Source: a virus
Virus record (IMG/VR): IMGVR_UViG_3300043465_002540
Location: 1 to 58,786 of that record
DNA length: 58,786 nt
Reading direction: 5' to 3' (one strand)
The notes beneath the pieces were generated by a model. It was given only the letters and a program-made list of their open reading frames with translations. It ran no database searches and had not been told where the DNA came from. The position numbers were made by a program, and so were the translations under genes. This document shows positions 1 through 18,183 of this stretch, piece after piece. The first letter of the stretch is position 1. Every line of letters starts with the position of its first letter.

Positions 1-102
1 ACTGGCAAATGGTCTCTTTCTGATGAAGACCTGATTCTTCGCAAAGATTTTGAGGAAAAAGTTAAGAGCTGGCTGCCTGCCGGACTAGGTTTTGGAAAAT
101 AA
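1..102 (+). CDS. 3' end of an unidentified gene
   Basis: Frame 1 is open from the window edge to a TAA at 100-102, giving a 33-residue C-terminus that ends in AGLGFGK. The residues are charged and helical in character, with no recognisable motif. The start lies outside the window, so no function is assigned. Confidence 0.6.
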   Translation, partial: TGKWSLSDEDLILRKDFEEKVKSWLPAGLGFGK

Positions 103-141
103 CGCTTAATAATTTACCCATAATAGTTTCCCAGTCTAGGA

Positions 142-162
142 GCCGAGCGCGCAGCGCCCGGC
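142..162. other. GC-rich imperfect hairpin in leader/intergenic space
   Basis: GCCG and GCGC arms pair with GCGC and CGGC arms around a GCA loop, with one A/C mismatch. The hairpin sits in the 132-bp gap between the first partial gene and the 2H phosphoesterase gene. It lacks a T-tract, so it is not a convincing intrinsic terminator. A TATAAAT box lies downstream at 207-213, but the nearest TTGACT (179-184) is 22 bp away, too far for a normal sigma-70 promoter. Confidence 0.35.
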
Positions 163-234
163 AATTAAATCGGCTAAGTTGACTGCAATCGGCACAAGTA
201 GGCCAATATAAATCGCTAACAGGTCAATATTCTC

Positions 235-705
235 ATGAAGAAATATAACGCATTTGCATACTGCACATTTCCTGCTGAAATAGAGAGCGCATTTCCGCGG
301 TTTGGACGTATTCTTAATGACGACTTTACCCGTCCGCATGCCTCTCTTGTCTATATACCAGGGCTTAGCGCAAGTGAAGTTGGCAAAGTCGCCGCTGCCG
401 TAGAGATGCTGGCAAAACGTTTGCAGCCATTTCAGATATCATTTGGAGACACTAAGTGCTTCGAGTCAAACAGTGATAGCGTTCCATGGTATGTAGAAGT
501 AAAGGGCGAAGGTTTCCTGCGATTGCGGGAGGCGTTGCTTTCCGTCATTGATTCGCTCGATGTCGAAATAAATGAGAAATTTGACAGCTTTGTTCCACAT
601 GCCACGCTACAATACATGAAGCCAGGCGAGAGTTATGAGGGCAAATCGCCGTCAGGCGATTGCACCATAAGTGATGTTCACTTTGCCTTCAAAGAAGCAG
701 AGTAG
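235..705 (+). CDS. 2H phosphoesterase family protein (LigT/Acb1-like fold)
   Basis: This 156-residue protein carries two H-x-[ST]-h motifs, PHASL (His35) and PHATL (His122). These are the signature and spacing of the 2H phosphoesterase superfamily, which includes 2'-5' RNA ligases, cyclic phosphodiesterases and the phage anti-CBASS enzyme Acb1. The length is close to T4 Acb1 (about 150 residues). Members act in the cytoplasm on 2',3'- or 3',5'-cyclic nucleotides or RNA termini. The substrate cannot be told from the motifs. Cleavage of immune cyclic nucleotides is an inference from phage context; RNA end processing is equally possible. The ATG has only a weak ribosome-binding site. Confidence 0.75.
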   Translation: MKKYNAFAYCTFPAEIESAFPRFGRILNDDFTRPHASLVYIPGLSASEVGKVAAAVEMLAKRLQPFQISFGDTKCFESNSDSVPWYVEVKGEGFLRLREALLSVIDSLDVEINEKFDSFVPHATLQYMKPGESYEGKSPSGDCTISDVHFAFKEAE

Positions 706-780
706 GCGGCGCCGGCCCTAAAGTCGGACCCGCCCGATCCGGTAGAGCGGACGGGGTGCCCGGCACCGGATCGCAAGTCT
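706..780 (+). ncRNA. Structured intergenic element, copy A
   Basis: This is the first of three related GC-rich elements (see 8513-8570 and 16278-16328). Hairpin 1 pairs CCGGC (712-716) with GTCGG (723-727) around a CCTAAA loop. A second region pairs CGATCCGGT (735-743) perfectly with ACCGGATCG (765-773) and is followed by a short T-run. From 712, 30 of 36 bases match copy B. It directly follows one stop codon and precedes the gene at 809. It could be a leader, a small RNA or a mobile repeat; its class is not recognised. Confidence 0.5.
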
Positions 781-808
781 TTTTATAGCAACCAGCAACG
801 GAGTAGCC

Positions 809-1045
809 ATGGAAATGATCTCGATCCCGCAGCGCTTTATCGTTTACCAGAATGCAGACCCGGATGTGATCGACGAGTTCACAGTAGTTTATCCGGATGG
901 AGCAGTATTCCTTTTCGACTCACAGGAACCGCATCGACCGCGTTTTCTGTGTTCTTATAAACACTTCACAAAGGACGAAGAAGATGTATTGATTAATTCT
1001 GTGCCAGAGTCGTTACTTGAGGCAATGATCAATCAGGAGATCTGA
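809..1045 (+). CDS. hypothetical protein (78 aa)
   Basis: A small acidic soluble protein with no motif I recognise. The ATG is preceded by GGAG at a good distance. The gene follows structured element A, so that element would be its 5' leader if transcription reads through. The next gene starts a few bases after its stop. Confidence 0.6.
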   Translation: MEMISIPQRFIVYQNADPDVIDEFTVVYPDGAVFLFDSQEPHRPRFLCSYKHFTKDEEDVLINSVPESLLEAMINQEI

Positions 1046-1049
1046 AAAG

Positions 1050-1358
1050 TTGGAACAGCAGAAATTATCAGCATTGCAACAGCTACAAGCAAAGGCGAAG
1101 GCAGCTGGAAGAGCTGCTGTCGTCTCTTCAGAAAACTTTGACGGGCTGGAGGATGACGCAAATCAATTCATTCAGCTTGTTCATCAGGCAGCCGATGAAG
1201 GATTGTGGGAGATTGATCTCACATTTGATAATCGGTCTGCTACTTATTTAAATCGGATAGCAGAAAAGGTTAAAGACGTCCTGTTTGATGTCTTTATCCT
1301 GGTAGACGCAGGCAGTCGCAAGATCCAGGCTTCCTGGAAATCTAGCAACGAAGTTTAA
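1050..1358 (+). CDS. hypothetical protein (102 aa, TTG start)
   Basis: Reads from a TTG codon placed about 10 nt after an AGGAG within the end of the previous gene, which suggests translational coupling. The N-terminus is helical and rich in Gln/Ala/Lys; the rest is mixed alpha/beta by eye. No family is recognised. Confidence 0.55.
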   Translation: MEQQKLSALQQLQAKAKAAGRAAVVSSENFDGLEDDANQFIQLVHQAADEGLWEIDLTFDNRSATYLNRIAEKVKDVLFDVFILVDAGSRKIQASWKSSNEV

Positions 1359-1384
1359 GCCATTTTGGCAGAAAGATGCATACC

Positions 1385-1738
1385 ATGTCGAATACTTTTG
1401 ATACGAACTATGACCGTACCGTTGTTGTTACCGTAGATGACCTTGTCAAGGAGAGTGGCAAGCCAGCGCTTCTTGTGAACAAGGCTCTTAAGGATGCTGG
1501 ATTGCAGTCGGTTGGTACGGTGCGTACTGGCCGCGTAGGCAAGCCCCCGCGCCTTTTTGACCGTGATCAGTTTCTGCGGGCAATTGCCGCATACGAGGAG
1601 CAGCGTACTACGCTTCGTGCTGCTCGTGCCTCTGCTGCTGTTCGCACGGCGCCAAAAGTTACTGTAAACACAGTACCACCGCCGGCGAATGATGATTCGT
1701 CAACTGCCTCATCCGAGGCCGTTGTTTTTGGTGAGTGA
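1385..1738 (+). CDS. possible winged-helix DNA-binding protein
   Basis: About 117 residues. The middle reads like a small helix-turn-helix: VTVDDLVKESGK, a second helix LLVNKALKDAGL, then a basic GRVGKPPRLFDRDQF segment resembling a wing and a return helix. The tail is Ala/Thr/Pro-rich and looks disordered. I prefer the ATG at 1385 over 1376 because the AGAAAG ribosome-binding site touches the earlier codon. DNA binding is an inference from this pattern only. Confidence 0.5.
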   Translation: MSNTFDTNYDRTVVVTVDDLVKESGKPALLVNKALKDAGLQSVGTVRTGRVGKPPRLFDRDQFLRAIAAYEEQRTTLRAARASAAVRTAPKVTVNTVPPPANDDSSTASSEAVVFGE

Positions 1739-1760
1739 ATAAAAGGAATAAGGAAAAAAC

Positions 1761-2045
1761 ATGAATAAGAAAGTTGTTGCCGCTGTTGTTGCTGTTCTTG
1801 TTGCCGTTCTCGGTCTCGTCAAGGTCTTCTCGGGCTCGGATGAGGCTGCTGCCGCTGCCGTAACGGAGGCCGCTGCCGCCGTTGTTGGCGAGGGTGAGGG
1901 CGAAGCTGCCGCTACCGTTACCACGGATTCGGCTGCTCCTGTTGGTGCCGCTGCTGCTACGGCTGCTACGGCTGCTACGGCCGCTACGGCCGCTACCACG
2001 GCTGCCCCAGCCACGGCGCCCGCTGCTGATGCAGCTGCCAAGTGA
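1761..2045 (+). CDS. Ala/Thr-rich single-pass membrane protein
   Basis: A 94-residue protein with a short basic start, one hydrophobic segment (about residues 5-22) and then an extremely Ala-rich low-complexity tail. At DNA level the tail is a run of GCTACG-type repeats around 1960-2010. The layout suggests an N-terminal membrane anchor or signal with a flexible external or periplasmic tail. A strong AAGGA ribosome-binding site supports translation. Leftward reading frames here are shadows of the repeat. Function is unknown. Confidence 0.6.
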   Translation: MNKKVVAAVVAVLVAVLGLVKVFSGSDEAAAAAVTEAAAAVVGEGEGEAAATVTTDSAAPVGAAAATAATAATAATAATTAAPATAPAADAAAK

Positions 2046-2051
2046 AAAAAT

Positions 2052-2127
2052 AGGGCTATGCCCTCTTTACTCCGTGTAAGCGGAGGATATAATCCTCCTA
2101 GCGGCGAAGAGCCGGAACTAGGAGGAT
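2052..2127 (+). promoter_or_regulatory. Switch-like leader sequestering the Hsp20 ribosome-binding site
   Basis: The ribosome-binding region CTAGGAGGAT (2118-2127) is the perfect reverse complement of ATCCTCCTAG (2092-2101). The helix continues inward as CGGC (2102-2105) with GCCG (2111-2114), leaving only a GAA bulge. The same anti-RBS strand can instead pair with GGAGGAT (2082-2088), forming a 7-bp hairpin with an ATA loop that would free the site. A small hairpin, AGGGC/GCCCT, lies at 2052-2064. Two exclusive folds over a ribosome-binding site are the hallmark of an RNA thermometer or riboswitch-type platform. Confidence 0.7.
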
Positions 2128-2129
2128 TT

Positions 2130-2429
2130 ATGTTTGATACGCTATCTCTATTTGATTCAATCTATTTTGTAGAAGAGGCCGATGGGCATACTATTATACA
2201 CATTCCCATGCCAGGAGCTACAAAAGAGGACGTAGACATTGACGCTGAGCCTACAAGGCTAGAGGTCAAAGTAAACACAGATAAGAAGCTGCCGTTCCTA
2301 AAGCAACGACGCTGGCGATTTACCCATAGACTGGGTAACCCAGAGGTTTCTGCAAAAGTAAATAACGGCGTTCTAGAGATTCGTATGTGCGAAGTAGGCC
2401 GTTCACGCTACCGCGTAGAGGTGGCATAG
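2130..2429 (+). CDS. Small heat shock protein, Hsp20/alpha-crystallin family
   Basis: 99 residues that read as an alpha-crystallin domain: PMPGATKEDVDIDAEPTRL is the typical P-G-xx-KEDV-x-I beta strand pair, and NGVLEIRM is the conserved NGVLxI motif near the C-terminus. Hsp20 proteins are cytoplasmic ATP-independent holdases that form oligomers. This one has little N-terminal arm and no clear I-x-I tail, so oligomerisation may differ. The ATG at 2130 is chosen because a perfect AGGAGG lies just upstream; an upstream in-frame ATG at 2058 falls inside the leader hairpins. Hsp20 genes are known in many aquatic T4-like phages. Confidence 0.85.
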   Translation: MFDTLSLFDSIYFVEEADGHTIIHIPMPGATKEDVDIDAEPTRLEVKVNTDKKLPFLKQRRWRFTHRLGNPEVSAKVNNGVLEIRMCEVGRSRYRVEVA

Positions 2430-2438
2430 CGAGGATAA

Positions 2439-3365
2439 ATGCTAGGAGTATGCTGCCAGTGGTTGAATGTCGTTCCTACAAAAACTGGTGAAAAATATGT
2501 TAACGCCCTAGGTGAACGCGCGCTTCAACTAGGGCGTTACTCTTCTGGCGCATATACGCCGGAACACATAGCTGATGTATGGCTCGGTAATGTAAAAGGT
2601 TTGGCCAACATTATACCTACGGTACGCAGCGCCGGCGTAGGTATGTTTAGAGTGGGCAGCACGCTGCTGCCGCTCTTTGATAAGATCGCAGAGAGCCCGC
2701 TTAAAGGCCTGGTCGCAGATGCGGAGTCAGAACTGCGCAAGGTAGGCGCCCTCACTAACGGTATGAGGCTGACCACTCACCCCGGTCAATTCGTAGTAAT
2801 TAGCTCGGATTCTGATACGGTCGTAGCTAACTCTGTTCGTGAGCTAGAGTATCACGCATTTATCATGGACTCTCTAGGGTGCGCCGCAACGCCGCGGTTT
2901 GCAATAAATATTCATGGTGGCAAGCGAGATCGCGGAGATCGCTTGGTTGCTTCAATTAAGTCTCTGCCTAATTCAGTCCGATCCCGCCTTACGCTAGAGA
3001 ATGACGAGAATTGCTGGTCTGTCGCTAACCTGCTGCCGATTTCTGAGCAAACCGGCGTTCCGATTGTCTTCGACTCTCATCATCATCCATTTAATGATGG
3101 CGGTCTAACCGGCGAGGCAGCAATGCTTGCTGCCGCAAGTACGTGGCCAAGCGACATAAGACCGCTACAACACCTTAGTAATACAGAGCCCGGCTTTGAA
3201 GGCGGCTCATTTACAGAGCGCCGACAGCATAGCTGGGCAATTCATTATGTACCGGATTATCAGCGAGACTTCTATCTAGCCGGTAAATCGGACATAGAGA
3301 TGGAGTGCAAAGGCAAGAATCTAGGCTTTATTCCGTATGTAGATGCCCTCGGCATCTATTTATGA
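2439..3365 (+). CDS. uvsE: UV damage endonuclease UvsE/UVDE
   Basis: 308 residues with the UvsE/UVDE signatures in order: an LGVCCQW start, RLTTHPGQFV, INIHGGKRDRG, RLTLENDENCW and VFDSHHH. These supply the metal ligands of the TIM-barrel nuclease, which nicks DNA 5' of UV photoproducts in the cytoplasm without needing excinuclease. It is full length for the family. A GAGGA ribosome-binding site precedes the ATG. The next gene begins inside its stop codon. It would protect phage DNA from sunlight or UV. Confidence 0.92.
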   Translation: MLGVCCQWLNVVPTKTGEKYVNALGERALQLGRYSSGAYTPEHIADVWLGNVKGLANIIPTVRSAGVGMFRVGSTLLPLFDKIAESPLKGLVADAESELRKVGALTNGMRLTTHPGQFVVISSDSDTVVANSVRELEYHAFIMDSLGCAATPRFAINIHGGKRDRGDRLVASIKSLPNSVRSRLTLENDENCWSVANLLPISEQTGVPIVFDSHHHPFNDGGLTGEAAMLAAASTWPSDIRPLQHLSNTEPGFEGGSFTERRQHSWAIHYVPDYQRDFYLAGKSDIEMECKGKNLGFIPYVDALGIYL

Positions 3366-3760
3366 AATTAAGCGATTTTGTATTTAGGAATAAACACTTC
3401 TTCATCGACATGTTTGTCGATCCTTCCAATACAAAATCGCTTAAAGCGGTAGTAGATGACCTCAATGTATACAAATGGGGTATAGCTGAGCCAGGAGCTA
3501 GCGGCAGGATAATCCTGTCTTGCTCCAGTAATGGCGAGATACAGAAGTCTGCTACTCTAGCAGTACTACCCGAACAGCTAACGGTATTTTTCGCCTTCCT
3601 GCCAGAAGGCGATTACTGCCGGTCTGACTTTGATGGCTTAGATTATATAATAGACGTCTGGAGCGAAGGCTCTACCTTCTTTCGCTGCGGAGGTCTTGAG
3701 GTGGTAGTTTACCAGCAAGATTCGTTAGTCGAATTGATCAAGGCAGCCAACGAAGGTTGA
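3362..3760 (+). CDS. hypothetical protein (132 aa)
   Basis: Starts at the ATGA overlap with the uvsE stop, so it is probably translationally coupled. The sequence is mixed and soluble, with no recognised domain. Its 3' end overlaps the end of the leftward gene at 3725-4231 by 36 bp. Confidence 0.6.
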   Translation: MKLSDFVFRNKHFFIDMFVDPSNTKSLKAVVDDLNVYKWGIAEPGASGRIILSCSSNGEIQKSATLAVLPEQLTVFFAFLPEGDYCRSDFDGLDYIIDVWSEGSTFFRCGGLEVVVYQQDSLVELIKAANEG

Positions 3761-4231
3761 ATCCTCGTAGCGCCGAATCTTCTTAATGATATTGCGTATG
3801 CGACCCGGTCGCTTAAGTACATTAGCCGCCAAGTCAAAGCGATTTAATATGTATTCGTATATGTCTTTGACGCTACCGTTCGGCAACACAAAGCCTTCGT
3901 CGCAGAAATCGGCCATGATAATCTGCTTCTTCCCTTTGTTCGGCCAGCTGCATATCTCGCAGAACAACAGCTTGCTGGCGCTATTTTGAAAGCAGCGTAT
4001 TATTCGGCGATTGTTTACCCAGATCTCGGCTACCATGATGCGAGGCCCTTCTAGCTGCACTTCGCCATCTAACCAGTAGTTATAGCCAACGAACTTGCTG
4101 ATAAAAGATTGGCCAGTGCCCAACTTAGCGACATTTAGTCTTATACCGAGGCTCTGCAATTTCACAACTAACTCGATTTCGATGCCTGGATTTCTGTGCT
4201 CTTTGCCACTTGCTGTAATGCTTCTGCACAA
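3725..4231 (-). CDS. hypothetical protein on the opposite strand
   Basis: A 168-residue leftward frame fills the only stretch here lacking a rightward gene. It has a plausible composition: a strand-rich middle (MVAEIWVNNRRIIRCF) and a basic helical end. It converges with the 132-aa gene and diverges from the topoisomerase gene. No Shine-Dalgarno sequence precedes the ATG at 4231, so the true start may be internal, for example a GTG near 4166. No function is recognised. Confidence 0.5.
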   Translation of the reverse strand: MCRSITASGKEHRNPGIEIELVVKLQSLGIRLNVAKLGTGQSFISKFVGYNYWLDGEVQLEGPRIMVAEIWVNNRRIIRCFQNSASKLLFCEICSWPNKGKKQIIMADFCDEGFVLPNGSVKDIYEYILNRFDLAANVLKRPGRIRNIIKKIRRYEDSTFVGCLDQFD

Positions 4232-4249
4232 GAATCTCGAGGGAATTAG

Positions 4250-6094
4250 ATGACCAAGACTAAAGAGTACACTTCCAACTCAATCCAAGTGCTGGACGAT
4301 ATTGCGCATATTCGCCTGCGTCCCGGCCTTTATGTGGGCGGTGCAAATGCTACCGGTCACTTTATTATCCTGAAGGAAATCATTGACAATGCTATTGACG
4401 AGGCTATCGCCGGCCATGCGACAAGGGTGCACGTAAAGATTTCTGACGACGGCAGGAGCGCCGAGGTATTTGATAATGGTCGCGGCATTCCACATGAGAA
4501 GCACCCCAAGACCGGACTAAGTACGCTGGCGACCGTATTTGGCACTGCCAAGTCAGGCGGCAAGTTTGACAACGACACTTATGGGACCTCAGTCGGTACA
4601 CACGGCGTTGGCTCGACCGCTACAAATGCTCTTTCGAAATCTTTTTATGCAGAGTCTTACCGTGGCAAGAAGTCTGCTAGCGTCTCGTTTGTACGTGGCA
4701 AAATGGTCGGCAAGGACGCAGTAATCTCGGACAACAAGACAAAAGAGAAGCGCGGCACCCTGGTGCGCTTTACTCCGGATTACGAAGAGGTATTCAAAGA
4801 CGTATCTGCTTTTAACATGGTCGAGATTGAAGCTCGCCTATCAGACGCAGCCAACCTGCTGCCTAAGACAAAGATAACTCTTGAGTTCGGCGGAGCCTCA
4901 AAAGACTTTAAGTGTGCGGGAGTAGCGGGAATCCTTGGAGTTACCGGGGCATATTCTGCTGACTTCGACATTGAAGTAGAGGTTGGTGGCGATAAAAAGA
5001 CTGCGGGCGTTTCAATTGCTTGGTGCTGGGGCAGCGAAGGCCGCGCAGTGTCGCTTGTTAACCTTAGTCGCACATCTGATGGAGGTCAGCACGCTTCTGG
5101 CTGGGAATCAGCAATTAGCGATTTCTTGTTGGAGCGCTGCAAGAACAAATGCTCTTCAAAAGAAATCCTTGATACCCTGCAGTACGCAGTGCATGTCAGC
5201 CACCCAAATCCGCAGTTCTCTTCGCAGACAAAAGAAAAGCTGATAAACAAGGGACTAGGCAAGGCTATCAGCGAGGCCGCTGTGCCACAGCTTAAGAGCT
5301 GGGCTCGCAGGAATACTGCCGCAGTTGATGCGCTATTGCAGTCAGCTATTGCAGCATATGAGGCGCGCCAGGCGCAGAAAGACCTGAAAGCTGCGCTAAA
5401 GGATCTGAAGACAACCCGCCGCAACAGCCGAGGCATCCTGCCCGATAAGCTGTTCGAAGCCGACTGCAAGCCGTATATGCGCGAGCTATACCTAGTGGAA
5501 GGCGACAGCGCTGCCGGCTCAGCAGTCAAGGGTCGTGACGCAGGGCACCAGGAGATCCTGCCACTAAAGGGCAAGATCCTGAACGTATTCAAGGCTTCCG
5601 AGGCGGAGGCAATTGCTAATGACGAAATCGCTGCAATTGTTGCTTCTGTAGGCGGAGGCTTTGGTGCCAGGTTTAATATGGCTGATGTGCGAATCGGCAA
5701 GGTTATCATCCTGTCTGATTCTGATCACGACGGCCATCACATTAGCAGTCTTATCGTAGGTCTTTTTGCCAAGTACATGCCGGGCCTTCTGGAGAAAGGC
5801 ATGATCTATACCGTAGATGCTCCACTTTACAAAGCTTCGTTGCCTGGCACGCGCACTCGCTGGTTCGGACATACGATGGACGATATTAAAGCAAAGGCTG
5901 GCAAGCAGTTCTCCAAGTGTGATGTTACGCGCCTCAAAGGTCACGGCGAGGCTAATCCAGATGAAGTTGCCGAATACGCCATGGGGAGCACAAGAAAACT
6001 TATTCAGCTGTCCTGGAAGGCTGCGGATGTAGAAGAGATTGTGAGAGTAATGGGCGATGACATCGCCGGCCGCAAAGAACTACTGGGAATCTGA
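4250..6094 (+). CDS. Type IIA topoisomerase ATPase/TOPRIM subunit (GyrB/ParE/T4 gp39-like)
   Basis: 614 residues. The GHKL ATPase is visible as EIIDNAIDEA (Glu43, Asn47) and DNGRGIP (Asp75). The TOPRIM metal site follows as LVEGDSAAGSA and SDSDHDGHH. The QxK-containing transducer lies between them. It hydrolyses ATP to drive strand passage, with the next gene product as the DNA-cleaving partner. The length suits ParE or a single-polypeptide version of T4 gp39 plus gp60. GAGGGA precedes the ATG. The stop overlaps the partner start, fitting a 1:1 complex. Confidence 0.95.
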   Translation: MTKTKEYTSNSIQVLDDIAHIRLRPGLYVGGANATGHFIILKEIIDNAIDEAIAGHATRVHVKISDDGRSAEVFDNGRGIPHEKHPKTGLSTLATVFGTAKSGGKFDNDTYGTSVGTHGVGSTATNALSKSFYAESYRGKKSASVSFVRGKMVGKDAVISDNKTKEKRGTLVRFTPDYEEVFKDVSAFNMVEIEARLSDAANLLPKTKITLEFGGASKDFKCAGVAGILGVTGAYSADFDIEVEVGGDKKTAGVSIAWCWGSEGRAVSLVNLSRTSDGGQHASGWESAISDFLLERCKNKCSSKEILDTLQYAVHVSHPNPQFSSQTKEKLINKGLGKAISEAAVPQLKSWARRNTAAVDALLQSAIAAYEARQAQKDLKAALKDLKTTRRNSRGILPDKLFEADCKPYMRELYLVEGDSAAGSAVKGRDAGHQEILPLKGKILNVFKASEAEAIANDEIAAIVASVGGGFGARFNMADVRIGKVIILSDSDHDGHHISSLIVGLFAKYMPGLLEKGMIYTVDAPLYKASLPGTRTRWFGHTMDDIKAKAGKQFSKCDVTRLKGHGEANPDEVAEYAMGSTRKLIQLSWKAADVEEIVRVMGDDIAGRKELLGI

Positions 6095-7542
6095 TGATAT
6101 CAAAAAAACAAAAAACGCCGCCTCAGGCATCTGTTGTAGTAGGACAATCTGCTGTAGAGTTCGTACGCCGAGCAATGAAGCACTACGGCGACGAGGTCAT
6201 TCAGAACCGCGCGCTACCCCGCCTAGAGGATGGTCTAAAGCCGATTCAGAGACTGCTGCTATGGAGCTGCGTAGACCTTAGCACTACTAGGTTTATCAAG
6301 TCTGCCAAGATCACCGGGCATTGCATTGCATCGTATTCGCCACACGGCGAGATTGCTGCATACGGATCGCTGGTTGGTATGGTAAACGAGCGGCACCCGC
6401 TAGTCGAAGGCCAAGGCAACTTTGGCGGCGCTACCACCGAAGCAGCCAGCGCTCGATACACAGAGAGCCGAATCCACCCACTAGCTCGTCGCCTGATAAC
6501 AGATTTACCTGACATGGCAGTAGTTCCTTATGAAAAGAACTACGATGACACTAAGGATCAGCCTCGCTATCTGCCAGGCCTCCTGCCAATGCTACTGCTA
6601 AATTCTAGCACCGGCATTGCAATGGCAATCACCAGCAAATTCCCTGGGTTCTCGATCCTAGAGGTTGCTGCCGCTGTACTAGAATATCTGGCGAATGGCA
6701 ATGAGAAAAAGGCTGCCAGGCATATTAAGGCTCCTGATGGCAACATCTGCAACCTGCTGTCTACAAAAGAGGAGGTTGCCGAACTACTTGCAACAGGATG
6801 CGGCCAGCTGCTGTACGAATGCAAGTACCACCTGGATAAAAAAGGCGACCGCAAGCTCATCGTAATCACCGGCTATGCTCCAGAGTTTAGCGTTTCTGGT
6901 TTTCTTGCCAAGTGCGGAGAGCTACAGGACTCAGGAATAATCGAAGCAACGCGCAATGAGACTTCAGGTGCCAATGGCGACAGAATCGTTATAGAATATC
7001 GCTCTGACGAAGCGTATGAGAAAGTACGCAAGCTACTTCGCAAAAAAGTTAGCTACCGAATGAATTGCCTGTATGAGGACGGCGGTTCGCTGATTCCAAA
7101 GCAAGTAGGTGTTGCCGACGTAATCAGGGATTGGGTAGCGGTTCGGCGCAAGACGGTTGCAGCTACGCTAGCGGCGTCGCTTAAGCGGCAAGACGAAGAG
7201 ATCAAGCGAGAAGCTGCCAAGCTGAATGCTTGCCTAAATCTAGAGGCAGTATTTGCTGCACTACGGGCTGAAGGCGATTTTAGGCAAAATTTGCAGAAGC
7301 TTGCCGGGCTAGACGACTTCGAGGCAGGCATAGTTTGCGAGATGCGCGTAGAGGCGCTAAAGAAAGCAAGTGCAGAAGCACTACGCAATAAAATAACAGA
7401 TATGCAGACTGCGCGCGCAACAACGGTCACAGATCTCAGCAATGTCGATGCCTATTTAATCCGTCAGATAAAGGCATTCATGAGCTGGTTGAAAGCGGAA
7501 TACCCCGACCTGTTGCTGCGAAAAACGGTCTGGGAAGTATGA
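6094..7542 (+). CDS. Type IIA topoisomerase cleavage subunit (GyrA/ParC/T4 gp52-like)
   Basis: 482 residues. The breakage-reunion domain is clear: ALPRLEDGLKPIQRLLLW, then EGQGNFG and the catalytic tyrosine in SARYTES at residue 122, the same number as in E. coli GyrA. The sequence ends after the coiled coil, so the DNA-wrapping beta-pinwheel of GyrA is absent, as in T4 gp52. This predicts a relaxing or decatenating enzyme rather than a gyrase. It starts at the TGATG overlap with the ATPase subunit. Confidence 0.95.
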   Translation: MISKKQKTPPQASVVVGQSAVEFVRRAMKHYGDEVIQNRALPRLEDGLKPIQRLLLWSCVDLSTTRFIKSAKITGHCIASYSPHGEIAAYGSLVGMVNERHPLVEGQGNFGGATTEAASARYTESRIHPLARRLITDLPDMAVVPYEKNYDDTKDQPRYLPGLLPMLLLNSSTGIAMAITSKFPGFSILEVAAAVLEYLANGNEKKAARHIKAPDGNICNLLSTKEEVAELLATGCGQLLYECKYHLDKKGDRKLIVITGYAPEFSVSGFLAKCGELQDSGIIEATRNETSGANGDRIVIEYRSDEAYEKVRKLLRKKVSYRMNCLYEDGGSLIPKQVGVADVIRDWVAVRRKTVAATLAASLKRQDEEIKREAAKLNACLNLEAVFAALRAEGDFRQNLQKLAGLDDFEAGIVCEMRVEALKKASAEALRNKITDMQTARATTVTDLSNVDAYLIRQIKAFMSWLKAEYPDLLLRKTVWEV

Positions 7543-7925
7543 TGAAGCTGGTGCAGTGGGTAATCATGTATGATCACGACTCGCTACTGAGTCTCGACTC
7601 ACGATTACCCATTCACCCGCAACACAGCAGAGTTCTAGATATCATGACAGTTTGCGACTGGATAATAGATCTGGACATGAAGTCAGGCTGCGGAGCATGG
7701 ATATGTCTTCGCGGCCTTTTTTGTGGCAAGGGCTTTTCACGCGATGCGGACGATATAGACTCAATACTCCATAGAATTGGTAATTCTGTAAAACCATTTC
7801 TAGAGATTTCTCCAAGTGATTCGCTGGATGCTACCTGTGTTCATCAGCTATCCAGCCTGGGTTTTGTAACTGAAAATAACTGTGGCCTACAGGTCATGCG
7901 GTGGTACAAAGATGAAGATTGTTGA
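7539..7925 (+). CDS. hypothetical protein, first of a tandem pair
   Basis: A 128-residue protein that begins inside the topoisomerase stop codon; the adjacent ATG at 7542 is equally possible. The opening MKLVQW, a [D]-rich stretch and PIHPQHSRV align with MKIVEW and PVHPKINDV of the next gene, so the two look like diverged paralogues. The C-terminal LGFVTENNCGLQVMRW vaguely recalls a GNAT acetyltransferase end, which is not enough to assign a function. Confidence 0.55.
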   Translation: MMKLVQWVIMYDHDSLLSLDSRLPIHPQHSRVLDIMTVCDWIIDLDMKSGCGAWICLRGLFCGKGFSRDADDIDSILHRIGNSVKPFLEISPSDSLDATCVHQLSSLGFVTENNCGLQVMRWYKDEDC

Positions 7926-8238
7926 GTGGTTTCTGAGCAAAGACATCGACACTGTTGTCAATAGCCTTCAGGACTTCCCCGTTCATCCAAAGATCAATGA
8001 CGTTGTCGAGTACTCTAGGAAGAACAATATCGGCATCCAGGTCCGCACAAAAGATGATCTGATGGTCCTGGGATTGTCTCCTTCGCTTGTTCGACCTGCC
8101 TGGCTGGCAGAGAGTATGTTTAATTTTTCGTTTGCCGGCTGCCGTATTATTGCCACGGTTTATTCCGAAGAACACCAGTCAAAGTTCCGGGCATGGGGAT
8201 TTAAAGAAAAAGGCCGAACCTTTACCTATACCGGCTGA
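7912..8238 (+). CDS. hypothetical protein, second of a tandem pair
   Basis: 108 residues from an ATG overlapping the previous gene by 14 nt. It shares the MK-[LI]-V-[QE]-W start and the HP-centred segment with its neighbour, and ends with a WGFKEKGRTF segment in the equivalent place. Function is not recognised. Confidence 0.55.
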   Translation: MKIVEWFLSKDIDTVVNSLQDFPVHPKINDVVEYSRKNNIGIQVRTKDDLMVLGLSPSLVRPAWLAESMFNFSFAGCRIIATVYSEEHQSKFRAWGFKEKGRTFTYTG

Positions 8239-8275
8239 GTCAATTAATAAGTGGGCAGTTTTAGACGAGGTTCTG

Positions 8276-8512
8276 ATGCACGACTTCTGCCAGCAAATTG
8301 CCCCATGTGATATCAAAGCTGGTCAGACCATCTTAATAAAGTGCCCAAGAATTAAAGAGATTTTCCGCGGCGACACTGACCAAATGATAGGTACAGTCTC
8401 CGCAGTGTTTGACGCTGGTGGCACGGTTGGCGTTCAAGTAGATATTTCCAATAGAAATCAATGGTGGCGCTGGATACCCTCAATTGATGGCGGCGAAGCA
8501 TTTGTCAAGTGA
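8276..8512 (+). CDS. hypothetical protein (78 aa)
   Basis: The start at 8276 follows GAGG at about 5 nt. The frame extends further upstream but would overlap the whole end of the previous gene. The sequence (AGQTILIKCPRIKEIFRG, then strands with VGVQVDI) suggests a small beta-barrel, without a recognised family. Confidence 0.5.
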   Translation: MHDFCQQIAPCDIKAGQTILIKCPRIKEIFRGDTDQMIGTVSAVFDAGGTVGVQVDISNRNQWWRWIPSIDGGEAFVK

Positions 8513-8570
8513 CTGCTCGCCCCGGCCCTAAAGCCGGTGCCGCCCGATCCTGTTGGGCACAAGGCGAACC
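8513..8570 (+). ncRNA. Structured intergenic element, copy B
   Basis: Second copy of the element seen at 706. CCGGC (8522-8526) pairs with GCCGG (8533-8537) around the same CCTAAA loop. GCCC (8542-8545) pairs with GGGC (8555-8558) around a GATCCTGTT loop. Relative to copy A, the T-to-C change at 8534 turns a G-U pair into G-C, keeping hairpin 1. It lies between a stop codon and the next gene, which has its own AAAGGA site further downstream. Confidence 0.55.
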
Positions 8571-8592
8571 CACAGCAGAAAGGATTTTGAAG

Positions 8593-8982
8593 ATGAACCA
8601 CGGAGAGAAGACAGCTAGCGAGGCAGTTTCTGGAGTCATGGCCGAATTGGCCGTAAAGGACGGCCAGCTGCGAGCAGCTTTCGTTATTCGCGACAAGCAG
8701 AACCCGTACAATGAGCCAACCACTCTTCGCGTAATGACGCTCGAAGATGTAAAGGCTTTCGTGGATGCCGTTCCAGACCAAGTTCACTATCTGGCTCTGT
8801 CAAAAGACGACAACCAGAAGCTTGTCAAGCTGAGCCTAAGCTCGCGTTCACACAAGTACAACGTCCACTGTGGTCAAACTAATCACATGGGATATCTATT
8901 CGACAAGACTCTTTTCGTTCGCCTAGAAGAAGAAATCGGCAACGAATTGATGCCGGATCTGCTCGTTTTCTTGAGCAACTGA
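8593..8982 (+). CDS. hypothetical protein (129 aa)
   Basis: The ATG at 8593 follows AAAGGA; frame-open codons further upstream run through element B and are not used. It is a soluble charged protein with no recognised motif. A strong AAGGGGG site of the following gene lies just after its stop. Confidence 0.6.
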   Translation: MNHGEKTASEAVSGVMAELAVKDGQLRAAFVIRDKQNPYNEPTTLRVMTLEDVKAFVDAVPDQVHYLALSKDDNQKLVKLSLSSRSHKYNVHCGQTNHMGYLFDKTLFVRLEEEIGNELMPDLLVFLSN

Positions 8983-8997
8983 AGTAAGGGGGTTATT

Positions 8998-9312
8998 ATG
9001 ATCAGTAGCGCTGAACAGCAATTTGTTATAAAACTGCAAGACGAAGAAGAACTAGAGCGCCGGTATTTGCTAGATGTTCTAGCTCACAAGCGCCTTGAGA
9101 ATGTCCAGAAATCCGGCGCGGTACTCGCTCCAGATCGCATTCTTGAGGCAGTAACGGTACTTGGAGAAGACTGCCGCCTGGAGTTCCGTGATGGTATGTG
9201 GAACATTGACCTTGGCGGAGCAGATACCAAGAAAAAGGTTAAGATCAGAGCTGAACGGCAGCATATTGCTCTCGCCAAAGCAATGATCATCTATGTCCGC
9301 AAATACCTTTGA
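8998..9312 (+). CDS. hypothetical protein (104 aa)
   Basis: Preceded by a strong purine-rich ribosome-binding site. The N-terminal half is a charged helix (DEEELERRYLL); the end is basic. It overlaps the HNH gene by 20 nt. No family is recognised. Confidence 0.6.
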   Translation: MISSAEQQFVIKLQDEEELERRYLLDVLAHKRLENVQKSGAVLAPDRILEAVTVLGEDCRLEFRDGMWNIDLGGADTKKKVKIRAERQHIALAKAMIIYVRKYL

Positions 9313-9781
9313 TTTCCTAGACCATTGCGGTCCGCAGCTAGTTCCTAGCTCAGCTTGGAACTCGAATCTGCGCGCAATACTGAGCGCAGCCGAATGGCGA
9401 GATCTTAGAGAGCGGGTATTTGCAAAACACGGCAAACAATGCGCTTACTGTGGATCCAGGCCGCGCTCACTAGACTGCCATGAAATCTGGTCGTACTGCA
9501 TAGAAGATGGTCAAGCAGCGGGCAGACAGAGCCTTGTTAAAATTCAACCTCTGTGTAAAGCCTGTCACATGGTGTGTCATATTGGATTCTGGTCGATGCA
9601 AGGCAAGTATGAACAAGTGCTTGCGCATATGATGCGCGTCAGAGGGATAAGTCGTGCAGCAGCTGTCGACGAAGTAGATGCAGCTTTTGCTACTTTTGAA
9701 TTACTGAGCCGCTTTGAATGGATACTCGACATAGGGGCGGTAAGCTTCTATGCAGATGAAACTCAAAAAATTCTTCCCTAG
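9293..9781 (+). CDS. HNH-type zinc endonuclease-like protein
   Basis: 162 residues. CAYCG and CKACH supply two CxxC-like zinc half-sites. LDCHEIWSY and the LCKACHMVCHIG segment give the His-containing beta-beta-alpha core of HNH nucleases. There is no intron or insertion signature around it, and it sits in frame with operon neighbours, so it looks like a resident gene rather than a free-standing homing element. The DNA target is unknown. Confidence 0.65.
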   Translation: MSANTFDFLDHCGPQLVPSSAWNSNLRAILSAAEWRDLRERVFAKHGKQCAYCGSRPRSLDCHEIWSYCIEDGQAAGRQSLVKIQPLCKACHMVCHIGFWSMQGKYEQVLAHMMRVRGISRAAAVDEVDAAFATFELLSRFEWILDIGAVSFYADETQKILP

Positions 9782-10211
9782 GCACGATCTAGATTTCCTG
9801 CTGGATTCTATTTTCGGCTGCCCCGAACCCAGACGCTTGATAGACATTGCCCGCAGCGCCAGTAGCCGCCTTGATTTTCCGCTATTTCAAGCGAGCATAG
9901 GCCAGGGCGATACCCCGTTTATTGTCGGCGACAACCCGCTTACAAGCGTGCACATGATCACATGGTTCAGGCAAAGCGCCGCCAAAGAGCGAATAGTCAC
10001 AGGATATCCTACCGCACACCCATTGTCAAGCTATTATCTGGGCTTATGGTATGCCTACGGATGGAGGCGTCCAGATAGCGAGATGCAGCGCATGCTAGAT
10101 GACTTAAGTAGTATTGGACAAATTCACACAAGAAACAGCTGGGCCTGGATAATAATAGACCCGGGCACAACCTTTGATCTAGGAGTTTTTTATGCAGTTT
10201 TCGGAGAATAA
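9750..10211 (+). CDS. hypothetical protein (153 aa)
   Basis: Overlaps the HNH gene by 32 nt; an ATG at 9756 is an alternative start. The sequence is aromatic-rich (SSYYLGLWYAYGWRR) and soluble in character. No domain is recognised. Confidence 0.55.
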   Translation: MQMKLKKFFPRHDLDFLLDSIFGCPEPRRLIDIARSASSRLDFPLFQASIGQGDTPFIVGDNPLTSVHMITWFRQSAAKERIVTGYPTAHPLSSYYLGLWYAYGWRRPDSEMQRMLDDLSSIGQIHTRNSWAWIIIDPGTTFDLGVFYAVFGE

Positions 10212-10680
10212 GCCACAGAACAACGGCTGCTATGCCGTCAAGTACGACGGAATTGTTTGGGCCTCGTTTAGGAAAGAGGCGTTGATGCAGTATTTTCACG
10301 ACGTAGAGAATATTGAGCAAGCCTCCAAGTTCTTTGAAGCACAGCCGGTTTTTGACGAGAGCAATCCTTTGGCTGATCCACTAGACCGACGGGATCTGCG
10401 CGCAGGCGAGAAACACCTAAAATATCTCGTATGCGACCGAACGGCACTAGAGTTCCAGCTAACATGCGCCGCCCGATCAGACGCACTAGGAATCGTAGCT
10501 TCTGAGATCTGCAATATTCTTGTTAATCGAGAAGAGGCGGCAGAGCTACTAGGTGTCCTGCGAGCGGATACGTTAGCAGTCGCAGCAGAAGACGACTGGT
10601 ATCAAAAGAATGGCGAGCGGTCACATGTCATGTTTGAAGAGACGTGCAAGGCCGCCGGCAAAGAACTAGGCAAGTGTTGA
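10192..10680 (+). CDS. hypothetical protein (162 aa)
   Basis: AGGAG stands about 8 nt before the ATG, within the end of the previous gene. The protein is acidic and mostly helical by eye, with a DPLDRRDLRAGEKHLKY stretch. No family is recognised. Confidence 0.55.
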   Translation: MQFSENKPQNNGCYAVKYDGIVWASFRKEALMQYFHDVENIEQASKFFEAQPVFDESNPLADPLDRRDLRAGEKHLKYLVCDRTALEFQLTCAARSDALGIVASEICNILVNREEAAELLGVLRADTLAVAAEDDWYQKNGERSHVMFEETCKAAGKELGKC

Positions 10681-11136
10681 ATGAAGATTAAGTCATTCCT
10701 GTACAATCAAGAGACAGAGGCTACGATAGATCTCGCATATAAGAGCGCGTCAGAGGTCGCCAAGAAGCTTGGTGTCAAGCTAAAGCCGGAAAAAGATTTC
10801 CGTTTCAGAATGAACTATGCTATCGCGCGCGCACGCAAGAGTCGTTGGAGCGACAAGCTAAACGAAATCAAGTCGATCCGACTTTCAGTTGGCGTTTCTT
10901 ATCATTCGCCTTGGTCTTCTGCAAGTCGCGAGACGCTAGAATACAGCATCTGCCATGAATTGACCGATGCGGCTGTAACAGACATAGGACTTTGCTCGGA
11001 GCTTATCAATTACGCCAGCTCCATCAAGATTGTTATCACGGTTGATTATTATCAAGCCTGGAGGCGTCAGGCCCGCAAAAAACAGCAGCAAACTACTGCC
11101 AACCTAAAAGGAACTCTCAGTGGATCAGGAGCGTAG
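10681..11136 (+). CDS. hypothetical protein with degenerate zincin-like motif
   Basis: 151 residues; the ATG abuts the previous stop. The segment LEYSICHELTDAAV resembles the helix of an HExxH metalloprotease such as SprT, but the second histidine is replaced by Asp (HELTD), so protease activity is unlikely as written. The tail is basic and Gln-rich. The zincin relationship is a weak inference. Confidence 0.5.
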   Translation: MKIKSFLYNQETEATIDLAYKSASEVAKKLGVKLKPEKDFRFRMNYAIARARKSRWSDKLNEIKSIRLSVGVSYHSPWSSASRETLEYSICHELTDAAVTDIGLCSELINYASSIKIVITVDYYQAWRRQARKKQQQTTANLKGTLSGSGA

Positions 11137-11533
11137 AATAGAAACAAAGATCTATCACGTTGACTGGGAGCAGCGCATCCTCTCGCATGTAGAGATCTTG
11201 TCTTCGGATGCTGCTGAAATGCCGGAACAGGGCGCGCTATTTGAGCGACTATTTGCTGCCGGCGATACAATCCTCACTACCTTCTCTACAGAGCATCCGC
11301 ACAATCGGATGCCGGATGCAATGCTAGGGCATCCGATAGGTACGCTCAAGTGGAACAAGAACTACTCAATACCGGATTTTGGCTATGATGAGTCCGGCGT
11401 CTATGGAAATCTCAGCTTCAACTCAAGGCTACAGTTCGTTTATATCTCCTGGAGCTCAATCTTGGAGATCACCGGACAAACCTCAGGGATTTCTGCAGCA
11501 TGGCAACTACCGCCAGAAAGCGAAAAAACATGA
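11120..11533 (+). CDS. SspB-like ClpXP adaptor (putative)
   Basis: 137 residues from a GTG preceded by AAAGGA. The core follows the SspB pattern: TFSTEHPHNRMPDAML aligns with the TF-T-xP-V-xP-L segment, then strands, then GNLSFNSRLQFVYISWSSIL, which matches the LSF-GG-xx-x-V-P-xx-A-I segment of SspB. SspB proteins tether ssrA-tagged substrates to ClpXP. The long acidic tail with the ClpX-binding end is not obvious here. A host-protease decoy role is possible. Confidence 0.4.
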   Translation: MDQERRIETKIYHVDWEQRILSHVEILSSDAAEMPEQGALFERLFAAGDTILTTFSTEHPHNRMPDAMLGHPIGTLKWNKNYSIPDFGYDESGVYGNLSFNSRLQFVYISWSSILEITGQTSGISAAWQLPPESEKT

Positions 11534-12240
11534 GTGATTATGCTCGAGTCATTCAGCATTGCTGGGACAAAACGCTTCGTGGAGCAGAGCCGAATGGCTC
11601 GTATTTTTTCTCGAAGGCTGACCTCGAGCAGTCTGCCGCTACACTTGGTCTAGTGATCAAAAACATAGCAGATATTCGCTATACGTTTGATTCAAGAGAG
11701 CCGCTGCCATTCTCGCACGATTACGGCATACTCCAGCTAGGCAAAGGCAAGTATGCTTTTGTGCCAGTCAAAGCTAACCTGGTTGACATGCCGCAGATTG
11801 ATGAGGCGCTTGCAGTAAAAGACTGCACCCCCGCTTTTGCAAAGAAGTATCTATCTAATGACGAGCAGGCAGCTATAACGCGCATGATGAGCAGCGGATG
11901 CTTTAACATGCTACCAGGCATATCTTGTGTACAGCGGTTGCAAGATCACTGGCGTACGACATGTAGCTTTGGACAAGTAGAGGTCGATGGTTTGGCCTCT
12001 GCAAAAGAGGGCGGGCGAGACTGCATACTGCTTATATCTGCAAAGCAATATCCTGGTAAAATAAGCAAGACGTACATCTATAATCTCGGGCGCCTCGCAA
12101 AGGAAAAGTTTCCTTCAGAAGTGGTTAAGATTGTCAATGTGTATTGCGCAGATGACTGCTATGTAGCATGGAGTTGTTGCGCCGGTGACAGCCCGGATGC
12201 AGTAGAGATAACAGATAGCACTGCATTCCATCTCTACTGA
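11530..12240 (+). CDS. putative PD-(D/E)XK nuclease-like protein
   Basis: 236 residues starting at the ATGA overlap. The C-terminal half contains GQVEVDGLA followed by ILLISAKQYPGKISKTYIYN, which reads as the E-x-D ... x-A-K core of restriction-endonuclease-like folds (acidic residues before a strand ending in a catalytic Lys). The N-terminus shows a possible wing or DNA-binding region. No methyltransferase lies nearby, so a restriction system is not indicated. The assignment rests on the motif only. Confidence 0.4.
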   Translation: MSDYARVIQHCWDKTLRGAEPNGSYFFSKADLEQSAATLGLVIKNIADIRYTFDSREPLPFSHDYGILQLGKGKYAFVPVKANLVDMPQIDEALAVKDCTPAFAKKYLSNDEQAAITRMMSSGCFNMLPGISCVQRLQDHWRTTCSFGQVEVDGLASAKEGGRDCILLISAKQYPGKISKTYIYNLGRLAKEKFPSEVVKIVNVYCADDCYVAWSCCAGDSPDAVEITDSTAFHLY

Positions 12241-12266
12241 AATAAGGTTAAGATTAAGTTGTGGTT

Positions 12267-12284
12267 GCCGCGATTCGTCGCGGC
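12267..12284 (+). other. TTCG-capped hairpin just before a start codon
   Basis: GCCGCGA (12267-12273) pairs with TCGCGGC (12278-12284) around a TTCG tetraloop, three bases before the first ATG of the FtsK-like gene. There is no T-tract, so termination is unlikely. Position suggests an effect on translation initiation or mRNA stability. Confidence 0.55.
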
Positions 12285-12286
12285 TT

Positions 12287-13309
12287 ATGGTGTTTATGGA
12301 GAACTATGTTGCGTATCTCAAAGCCAACAAAATACATGGCACAGATTTCGTTTTCTCGAGTAACAAATTCACCCGTTCGCTTTCATTCCGACCTGGCATA
12401 GGCACAAGGCTTTCGGCAGTAGAGAAAATAGTAAAAGACTTCTCGTTGTTTGCAGGCTCGGTAGGCGTTGCAACCGTATCTGCACACTACAACGACGGTA
12501 GAATTAAAATCGAATGGCTACATGAACCGCTGCAAAGCAGCACCCTGCCCGGTCGGCCAGACTTCTATAGCGTTCCACTTGGTATCACCACAAAAGGCGA
12601 GCCAAGAAATATCCATCTGCCCAAGGCGCCACACATTCTAGTGGCCGGAACAACCGGTAGTGGCAAGACCTATTGGATGCATGGTGCTATTCGCTGGGCT
12701 CTAAAGCAGGAAATGCAGGTCTATGCAATCGATCCAAAGTGGGGCGAGTTCGTTGCGTACAGCAAAGACGCACGCTTTAGGCACCTTACCGAGGACGAAG
12801 ATATCCTAGGAACAGTTAATGATCTGGTCTCCCGAATGGATCTGCGCTATCGGCGCATGGCAGAACTCAAGATGTCAGACATTGTTACGCTAAATCGGAT
12901 GTCTGGTAAGAAAATGGATCCGATACTATTGGTAGTGGACGAGCTTGCTGACCTCGTAGCAAAGCATGGAGATGCATTCCTCAAGCCGCTACAGCGCCTT
13001 GCCCAGAAAGGCCGAGCCGCTGGTATACATATTATTTGTGCGACGCAGGCGCCAACCGCCAAGCTGCTAAATGGCGAGCTAAAGGCAAACTTCCCGGTGC
13101 GCGTGGCGTTCAGAACTGCTTCGGCCGTAGCCAGCAGAGTAATTCTTGACGCATCAGGTGCTGAGAATCTAGCAGGGGCTGGTGATGGCATCTGTATCGC
13201 AGAGGGCGGCGAATGGGTTAGGTTCAAGGGTTATGCTCTTGGTAATGCGCCGCTAGAGATAAAGCCAAAGTCTATCTGGCATATGCTCAAAGAAATGGTT
13301 AACATATGA
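12287..13309 (+). CDS. FtsK/SpoIIIE-type DNA translocase
   Basis: 340 residues with the FtsK motor: HILVAGTTGSGKT (Walker A near residues 121-128), YAIDPKWGEF, Walker B LLVVDELADL and the sensor segment GIHIICATQAPTAKLL. FtsK motors pump double-stranded DNA. No transmembrane segment and no gamma domain are seen, so it is a bare motor. Possible jobs are genome resolution, partition or moving DNA in the cell. It could also start at 12296. A TTCG hairpin precedes the start. Confidence 0.85.
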   Translation: MVFMENYVAYLKANKIHGTDFVFSSNKFTRSLSFRPGIGTRLSAVEKIVKDFSLFAGSVGVATVSAHYNDGRIKIEWLHEPLQSSTLPGRPDFYSVPLGITTKGEPRNIHLPKAPHILVAGTTGSGKTYWMHGAIRWALKQEMQVYAIDPKWGEFVAYSKDARFRHLTEDEDILGTVNDLVSRMDLRYRRMAELKMSDIVTLNRMSGKKMDPILLVVDELADLVAKHGDAFLKPLQRLAQKGRAAGIHIICATQAPTAKLLNGELKANFPVRVAFRTASAVASRVILDASGAENLAGAGDGICIAEGGEWVRFKGYALGNAPLEIKPKSIWHMLKEMVNI

Positions 13310-13701
13310 ACAATCGTATCGCTTATGCGCTAATTAAAGAGATCCCGCTGCCCAGGCTGCTTGCTGCACTTGAAGGCGCTAGCGAGGCACCTCCGGCTGA
13401 GCTTGCAGAGGCAGCAGACAAAGTAAGCAAGCTCATATATGGCTCAGAAGAGAACGACCAAATGCTGCGAGACATTGCAAAGCTTCTGGTTACGACGCCA
13501 GCTCTTACGAGTAGCATAATTATGCGCTCGCCTGCCGTAGAGGGCTTGCTTGCAAGCCAAGCCGTTTCGCAGGCTATTGAGTTGCTAAAAAATGCAGGAT
13601 TTGGTGCCCTACACATAGCAGAACAAAAAGCAGAGCACCGTAGTCCGGTGCTCAGCAAGTTTCTTAAGATTTGCCAGGAAGAGCTATCTGGTCGCTCATG
13701 A
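13306..13701 (+). CDS. hypothetical protein (131 aa)
   Basis: Starts at the overlap with the FtsK-like stop codon and is probably coupled to it. It is helical, with Ala/Glu/Leu-rich segments and no recognised domain. It ends head to head with the leftward acidic gene. Confidence 0.55.
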   Translation: MNNRIAYALIKEIPLPRLLAALEGASEAPPAELAEAADKVSKLIYGSEENDQMLRDIAKLLVTTPALTSSIIMRSPAVEGLLASQAVSQAIELLKNAGFGALHIAEQKAEHRSPVLSKFLKICQEELSGRS

Positions 13702-14058
13702 CTCCGGTTCGTCTACTTCTACCGCTTCCTCTATGTGGGCATCAGACTCTTCTTCTAGATCTGCGTCATCCCCGTCACCGTCGCCTTCATCTGCGTCTAG
13801 CATTCCTTTCAGCCTATTTGCAAGCTCCTTTACAGGATCAGTCGCTGGAAGCTCTGGCATTGGTGGGGCTTTAGTTGCACCGGCAGCAGGATCAGCTGGC
13901 AATGGGACTTCTGAGATCGCATCTCCGCCAGCGGCAGGATTCTTTTGATCAGTCCCCATTTGTTGGACAAGCGAGTCTATTTTGACAGAAGGGTCAACCG
14001 CAGGAGCGGCCTCGTCTGCGGTTTTAAAAAGACTAAAATTAAACACGGAATACCTCAT
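13696..14058 (-). CDS. acidic low-complexity protein on the opposite strand
   Basis: About 120 residues. After a short hydrophobic start (MRYSVFNFSLF), a Pro/Ala-rich middle (PLPADPAAGATKAPPMPELP) leads to a very acidic tail (DADEGDGDGDDADLEEE). The rightward frames here are low-complexity Ser/Pro shadows of this coding sequence. Its start codon shares bases with that of the rightward gene at 14057 (CATG at 14056-14059). No ribosome-binding site is obvious. Such tails often bind basic proteins; its function is unknown. Confidence 0.55.
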   Translation of the reverse strand: MRYSVFNFSLFKTADEAAPAVDPSVKIDSLVQQMGTDQKNPAAGGDAISEVPLPADPAAGATKAPPMPELPATDPVKELANRLKGMLDADEGDGDGDDADLEEESDAHIEEAVEVDEPES

Positions 14059-16328: not shown

Positions 16329-16333
16329 CGAAG

Positions 16334-17216: not shown

Positions 17217-17217
17217 T

Positions 17218-18166: not shown

Positions 18167-18183
18167 AGGGACAAGGCAGGAAG

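Follow-up and report, generated by a model that had tools for sequence, protein, structure and literature searches.

A phage gene for a small heat shock protein, hsp20, was found to be preceded by a strong hairpin that sequesters its ribosome-binding site (RBS). The gene lies in a 58,786-base stretch of viral DNA (IMG/VR record IMGVR_UViG_3300043465_002540), the whole of which we analysed and call the window. The window is part, with 1 mismatch, of a 371,675-base contig (IMGVR_UViG_3300035212_003113), and its source, judged from the sequence, is a jumbo phage. A single further hsp20 genotype, here called the relative, was found in IMGVR_UViG_3300044701_005655 (36,085 bases). Since a promoter-like site overlaps the 5' arm of the hairpin, we propose, at about an even chance of being right, that the hsp20 leader is a translational lock with an embedded promoter, similar to that of gene e of phage T4. 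hsp20 would then be a candidate case of a known T4-type lock in a new gene class and a new phage lineage. The gene and the parts of its leader, including the Shine-Dalgarno sequence (SD), are the following:

2066..2071, + strand: -35-like hexamer TTTACT (4/6 match), unchanged in the relative
2088..2093, + strand: -10-like hexamer TATAAT (6/6 match), after a 16-nt spacer, overlapping the 5' arm
2091..2101, + strand: 5' (anti-SD) arm AATCCTCCTAG, which the predicted fold prolongs to 2086 on its upstream side, with pairing beyond the start codon
2102..2114, + strand: inner stem-loop CGGC-GAAGA-GCCG, with stem strands 2102-2105 and 2111-2114
2118..2128, + strand: 3' arm CTAGGAGGATT, which contains the SD and whose predicted pairing runs on to 2134 over the AUG
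2120..2125, + strand: SD AGGAGG of hsp20, within the 3' arm
2130..2429, + strand: hsp20, encoding a 99-aa alpha-crystallin-domain small heat shock protein

The two arms form a perfect 11-bp helix (2091-2101 with 2118-2128). An earlier inspection of the letters alone (the sequence-only reading) had described the perfectly pairing strings ATCCTCCTAG at 2092-2101 and CTAGGAGGAT at 2118-2127, extended by CGGC/GCCG, and all of these were found, the extension at 2102-2105/2111-2114. In the predicted fold the outer helix comprises 16 pairs with one bulged base and reaches past the start codon, and the computations placed the SD and/or the AUG within a stable helix in read-through RNA. To put a figure on this sequestration we used the SD-opening cost, the calculated energy needed to unpair all six bases of the SD, with the Escherichia coli ibpA and ibpB leaders as controls. 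For the long hsp20 RNA the cost was about 14.7-14.8 kcal/mol at 37 °C and 12.1-12.2 kcal/mol at 50 °C (opening probabilities of about 4e-11 and 5e-9, respectively), while for an RNA starting at 2100 it was 0.8-1.0 kcal/mol at 37 °C. The relative gave 18.9 kcal/mol for the long RNA and 0.7 kcal/mol from the corresponding start.

The leader is 84 nt long in both genotypes, measured from the short upstream gene to hsp20, and is 87% identical between them. Overall, the window and the relative share 76% identity over 25,082 aligned window bases, with 73% in noncoding DNA (2,533 bases) and 51% at third codon positions (7,371 positions). Within the leader, positions 2087-2102 (16/16 bases) and 2118-2129 (12/12 bases) are unchanged. 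The sequence-only reading had suggested looking for conserved pairing in related phages, and in the sole further genotype the outer helix indeed retains 16/16 pairs, as in the window, with one consistent change from G.U to A-U. The inner stem of the relative reads CGGC-GCAA-GCCG; it has a different loop and is shifted by one base. Because the inner stem is thus kept by a register shift, an RNA function fits better than a DNA site. A DNA operator or dispersed repeat was rejected on this shift and on the distribution of the paired motif TCCTCC-N8..38-GGAGGA, which each of the three records searched contains at hsp20 and nowhere else; in the large contig, the reversed control pattern was likewise present, with one copy per strand.

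The promoter-like site inside the 5' arm is sigma70-like and matches at 10 of 12 positions. The relative has the same two hexamers (12 bases) at the same 16-nt distance, although 5 of the 16 spacer bases have changed. Sites with at least 10/12 matches number 5 in the 56,008 noncoding + strand bases of the contig, the hsp20 site included, and the chance of finding such a site at one of 15 fitting positions is about 0.0013, a post hoc figure. From the position of TATAAT we would predict an RNA start at about A2100; the hexamer ends 7 bases before this A, which is the usual spacing between a -10 box and the RNA start.

These elements suggest how the lock would operate. Transcripts from upstream promoters that read into hsp20 would carry both arms, and with the SD and the AUG buried in a helix of roughly 16 pairs such RNA would leave hsp20 untranslated. 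The second promoter, TTTACT-N16-TATAAT, has its -10 box overlapping the 5' arm, and RNA initiated near A2100 would therefore lack that arm, have no hairpin left at its 5' end but the small inner one and present an accessible SD for translation. How much hsp20 product is made would then depend on the activity of the gene's own promoter, irrespective of read-through. While the hairpin, its conservation, its energetics and the conserved promoter-like site are observed or computed, a working promoter, a start at about 2100, read-through and any temporal meaning are presumptive. Read-through from upstream is plausible from the co-directional genes and from one copy of an abundant early element of this phage, described below:

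717..742, + strand: CCTAAA-N13-GATCC(T/G)G, the copy nearest upstream of hsp20, at 1.4 kb (L023:7665; counterpart in the relative at L037:11345)

If this copy is a promoter, it could be a source of read-through into hsp20, and such RNA would be locked. A transcription start downstream of 2101 had been named in the sequence-only reading as evidence against its own explanation, and the candidate start near 2100 comes close to this, by prediction only. Since the T4 layout is itself a switch, a start near 2100 changes the explanation but keeps the interest of the leader.

The closest known systems are T4 gene e and also soc, 49, I-TevI, segB and, from phage Aeh1, mobE. In the parts of PMC3014915 that concern gene e, early read-through RNA for the lysozyme is described as silent because a hairpin hides the start, while late promoters located in the DNA of the 5' strand give late RNA without that strand. 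The relevant parts of PMC2988022 describe the same layout for I-TevI and similar arrangements for I-TevII, I-TevIII, segB and mobE. The hsp20 leader shares with gene e a strong hairpin over the SD and start in read-through RNA, a promoter box that overlaps the 5' arm, and RNA from that promoter, here predicted, that would lack the arm. The SD-opening costs are also alike, at 13.4 kcal/mol for gene e in the same calculation versus 14.7 kcal/mol for hsp20; for RNAs starting after the late box, with starts that we placed 5-7 bases after the first late promoter box, gene e gave 3.2-3.5 kcal/mol. The two systems differ in that the hsp20 site is sigma70-like rather than TATAAATA and is predicted from sequence, that the gene encodes a chaperone, and that the genome is that of a jumbo phage which, by two of its proteins, has no close named relative. 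The T4 late promoter TATAAATA was absent from the leader and from 231 intergenic regions. As the site is neither TATAAATA nor the candidate late motif CTATT[AC]AT of this phage, we limit the claim to a leader that works like that of T4 gene e and leave the promoter class open.

Several observations weigh against this proposal. Only two genotypes were compared, with almost no covariation between them, and 15 of the 16 outer pairs are invariant. With an identity of 0.87 the leader comes third among the 17 intergenic regions that were aligned; three other regions lie close to it (0.86-0.91), some of them perhaps unrecognised coding sequence. The promoter side is weakened by the fact that TATAAT is not enriched before phage genes (14 of 231 intergenic regions vs 10.6 +- 2.8 in shuffled sequences) or in the window (24 vs 22.3 +- 4.5), and sigma70-like sites in positions 1-20000 of the window are, if anything, rare (15 vs 21.8 +- 3.6). 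The use of sigma70-like promoters by this phage therefore stays putative. The hsp20 site also differs from both the abundant early element and CTATT[AC]AT, and the conservation of TATAAT could be due in part to its pairing with the AUG region. Finally, a comparable SD hairpin before a gene for an IMP dehydrogenase (IMPDH)-like protein (L026:8617) has an arm without an obvious promoter, as judged by eye.

The leading rival explanation is a standing attenuator or 5' stabiliser, which would hold hsp20 translation low in polycistronic RNA, or protect or punctuate the message, with no switch and with TATAAT incidental. The lack of enrichment of TATAAT and sigma70-like sites favours it, as does the conserved hairpin, and pairing of the helix extension with the AUG would by itself be enough to conserve ATATAA. 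A cost near 15 kcal/mol, however, amounts to near-total shut-off in the model, so that a conserved and intact open reading frame (ORF) would be hard to explain without some relief, and a strong SD (AGGAGG) has been retained; we consider this explanation unlikely. A little less likely still is a lock opened in trans, be it by an endonuclease (RNase III-like, or RegB-like at GGAG), by a small RNA on the anti-SD arm or by a protein. A long perfect RNA duplex is a plausible RNase III substrate, and cutting at GGAG in initiation regions has a precedent in RegB of T4, as covered in part of PMC3014915; moreover, if the embedded promoter is not real, no other conserved release path is visible. Against opening in trans, no factor or pairing RNA was identified, the paired motif stands at hsp20 alone in each record searched, and cleavage at the SD would destroy it.

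That the leader belongs to a heat shock gene raises the question of an RNA thermometer, in which heat would melt the hairpin and switch the protein on. Folding across temperatures, as the sequence-only reading had recommended, kept the SD closed to at least 60 °C in the model, and the SD-opening cost is about three to five times that of the E. coli controls (3.0-3.7 kcal/mol for ibpA and 4.7-5.4 kcal/mol for ibpB at 37 °C, vs 14.7 kcal/mol for hsp20). On this comparison a thermometer was ruled out in the model, and we regard it as very improbable. The leader resembles ROSE (E. coli ibpA/ibpB) and FourU (agsA) in sequestering the SD of a small heat shock gene, but differs in its long perfect helix, in its cost, which was compared with ibpA/ibpB only, agsA being outside the computation, and in the absence of an Rfam match. 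The window had no Rfam match at the gathering score, and among the 6 weak matches in 2030-2200 there was no thermometer family, which bears out the earlier remark that the fold fits neither the known ROSE nor the known FourU type. If our proposal is right, it also cautions against taking an SD hairpin before a heat shock gene for a thermometer on that ground alone. The sequence-only reading had favoured a bistable leader. In such a leader an upstream element would vie with the SD strand for pairing to the anti-SD arm, possibly in the course of transcription, and the leader could be trapped in an open state:

2082..2088, + strand: GGAGGAT, alternative partner of the anti-SD arm (GGCGAAT in the relative)

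The alternative helix does exist in the window, with 7 pairs, and would be made first during synthesis. When forced, however, the alternative fold reached -30.3 kcal/mol compared with -42.7 kcal/mol for the closed state, a deficit of 12.4 kcal/mol, and the relative retains only 5 of the 7 pairs while its closed helix is intact. The energy gap and this loss ruled out bistability as a working explanation, leaving it the least credible of those considered, and the alternative pairing is most likely incidental. The leader of lambda cIII, which is bistable, is likewise a phage leader with two proposed exclusive folds over the RBS; in hsp20, by contrast, a gap of 12.4 kcal/mol separates the folds, and the less stable one is unconserved.

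We also examined how far the hairpin exceeds chance. The leader folds at -42.7 kcal/mol compared with -22.5 +- 3.2 kcal/mol for shuffles (z -6.4), and in 3000 shuffles of the leader a perfect helix over the SD zone arose 0 times at 11 bp and 1 time at 10 bp. A simple purpose-made gene caller gave 449 starts in the contig that have 100 bases in front of them. An 11-bp perfect helix covers the SD zone at 2 of these starts, hsp20 being one of them, compared with 1 of 2245 shuffled starts, so that chance alone could account for one such case in a genome. Compared with shuffles, real starts have a helix of at least 5 bp somewhat less often (95/449 vs 608/2245) but one of at least 8 bp somewhat more often (9/449 vs 21/2245), because of which the phage genome may hold a few selected SD hairpins. 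Ranked among 448 starts, the hsp20 leader is 5th by folding energy and 10th by inaccessibility: it is extreme, yet others in the genome are comparable. Among runs of identity in noncoding DNA, the one beginning at 2087 ranks fourth by length, with 20 bases when gaps are allowed in the alignment and 16 when they are not; the longest in the aligned window is a noncoding stretch of 39 GC-rich bases at 23885-23923. Conservation in the relative is stronger evidence for the hairpin than the count of such helices in the genome.

Other hairpins of this kind were seen. The second 11-bp perfect hairpin, GCCCTCCCCGG/CCGGGGAGGGC (L018:18470-18506), belongs to a gene that Pfam identifies as a PP-loop ATPase (L018:18507) and covers its SD zone. 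The SD-hiding hairpin of the phage IMP dehydrogenase/GMP reductase-like gene mentioned above is ATCTCCTG/CAGGAGAT with inner CTCT/AGAG (L026:8579-8616). When viral contigs were searched for exact copies of the hairpin, 32 stretches were returned, 2 of them being the known contigs; in the other 30, ORFs were gauged by length alone, and several of at least 96 aa start just downstream. In the unrelated viral contigs L048, L053, L062 and L064 the exact TCCTCCTAG/CTAGGAGGA hairpin precedes an ORF of 96-219 aa, and in L048 TTGACA lies upstream of it.

The hsp20 product has an alpha-crystallin domain. It scored just above the Pfam cut-off for PF00011 (21.5 bits, cut-off 20.8) and above that for PF17886 (24.3 bits, cut-off 22.5), and an AlphaFold model of modest confidence (mean pLDDT 70) retrieved the solved small heat shock proteins 3aac, 3vqm and 3w1z with Foldseek (3 matches at E <= 0.001, best 6e-4, TM about 0.5). 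The protein is 84% identical between the window and the relative. It was unmatched in PHROGs at E 0.001, its alignment was unmatched in a PDB sequence search at E 0.01, and tblastn (E 0.01) found no matching record in the phage collection. Phage-encoded Hsp20 genes are known from cyanophages and pmoC freshwater phages, according to the portions consulted of PMC3827213 and PMC7674155; the present protein is likewise a phage-encoded small heat shock protein but differs in the lack of a tblastn match. The words promoter, thermometer, upstream and untranslated are absent from the main text of PMC3827213, and the titles and abstract openings of the open-access literature searched name no SD hairpin or thermometer on a phage hsp20.

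hsp20 is flanked by a short gene ending at 2045 and by a UvdE gene downstream. The start of hsp20, earlier placed at 2052, was corrected to the ATG at 2130; the in-frame ATG at 2058 is CTG in the relative, which also has an in-frame TAA directly before the SD, and translational coupling through an upstream in-frame ORF was rejected for these reasons. One further element follows the upstream gene:

2052..2064, + strand: small hairpin AGGGCTATGCCCT, with a 9-bp stem in the relative

This hairpin has a terminator-like score on the - strand only and is at best a weak terminator on the + strand. Elsewhere in the window, the phage also encodes a Lon protease (27592-30012) and a divergent GroEL-like chaperonin (32114-33826), and hsp20 may therefore belong to a wider group of proteostasis genes.

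The + strand of the contig carries 432 of 460 called genes. Searches for further Hsp20 relatives with Hsp20, UvdE, GyrB and the Hsp20 and GyrB alignments returned the same two contigs only; two distant GyrB loci (L074 and L075; 32% identity) were kept outside the hsp20 comparison. All 1208 GyrB-matching and 258 GroEL-matching records, the latter being all phage records matching the chaperonin, are below 60% identity to the phage proteins, so that, judged by these two proteins, the phage appears to have no close named relative.

The early element, CCTAAA-N13-GATCCTG, is repeated in the window at 717-742, 8527-8552 and 16289-16314 and in the stretches L018-L024, L035, L036 and L037. With spacers of 9-17 allowed, 71 of 72 matches in the two contigs have exactly 13 bases and 70 of 72 lie on the + strand, at a median of about 45 bases before a + strand start among the matches within 600 bases. 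One part of the contig (171,675 bases) has 64 + strand copies, and the element stands before 45 of the 167 starts there; the 200,000 bases of L025-L034 have 0 + strand copies. A search of the viral collection with a stricter form returned 16 stretches, every one of them within the two contigs. Some spacers are GC-rich, with a possible hairpin, and others AT-rich. The element as a whole resembles an early promoter specific to this lineage. The candidate late motif CTATT[AC]AT came from motif discovery in the late region (L025-L034, 140-340 kb of the contig); it was found in 8 of 85 intergenic regions there, compared with 0.6 in shuffled sequences and 0/167 elsewhere, having been chosen and counted on the same data, and is followed by CC in 4 regions. 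A divergent, sigma-factor-like protein of 262 aa with two CxxC motifs (L026:17957-18745) matched Sigma70_r2 (below the curated cut-off) and PHROG sigma families, with weak C-terminal helix-turn-helix matches, and is a candidate phage transcription factor. The RNA polymerase beta-prime family PF04998 was unmatched in the contig.

If the proposal is correct, the timing lock of T4 lysozyme would also guard a chaperone gene in a distant jumbo phage, and a promoter placed within an anti-SD arm would be more general than T4 genes and homing endonucleases. One doubtful extension is that the lock would act as a gate on promoter identity, leaving hsp20 deaf to RNA from the phage's own early element and responsive only to an embedded host-type promoter; the chaperone would then be made in proportion to the surviving host-type RNA polymerase activity and not according to the phage programme. 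While the purpose of Hsp20 in cyanophages and large freshwater phages is uncertain, the lock would offer a handle on the timing of its production by the phage.
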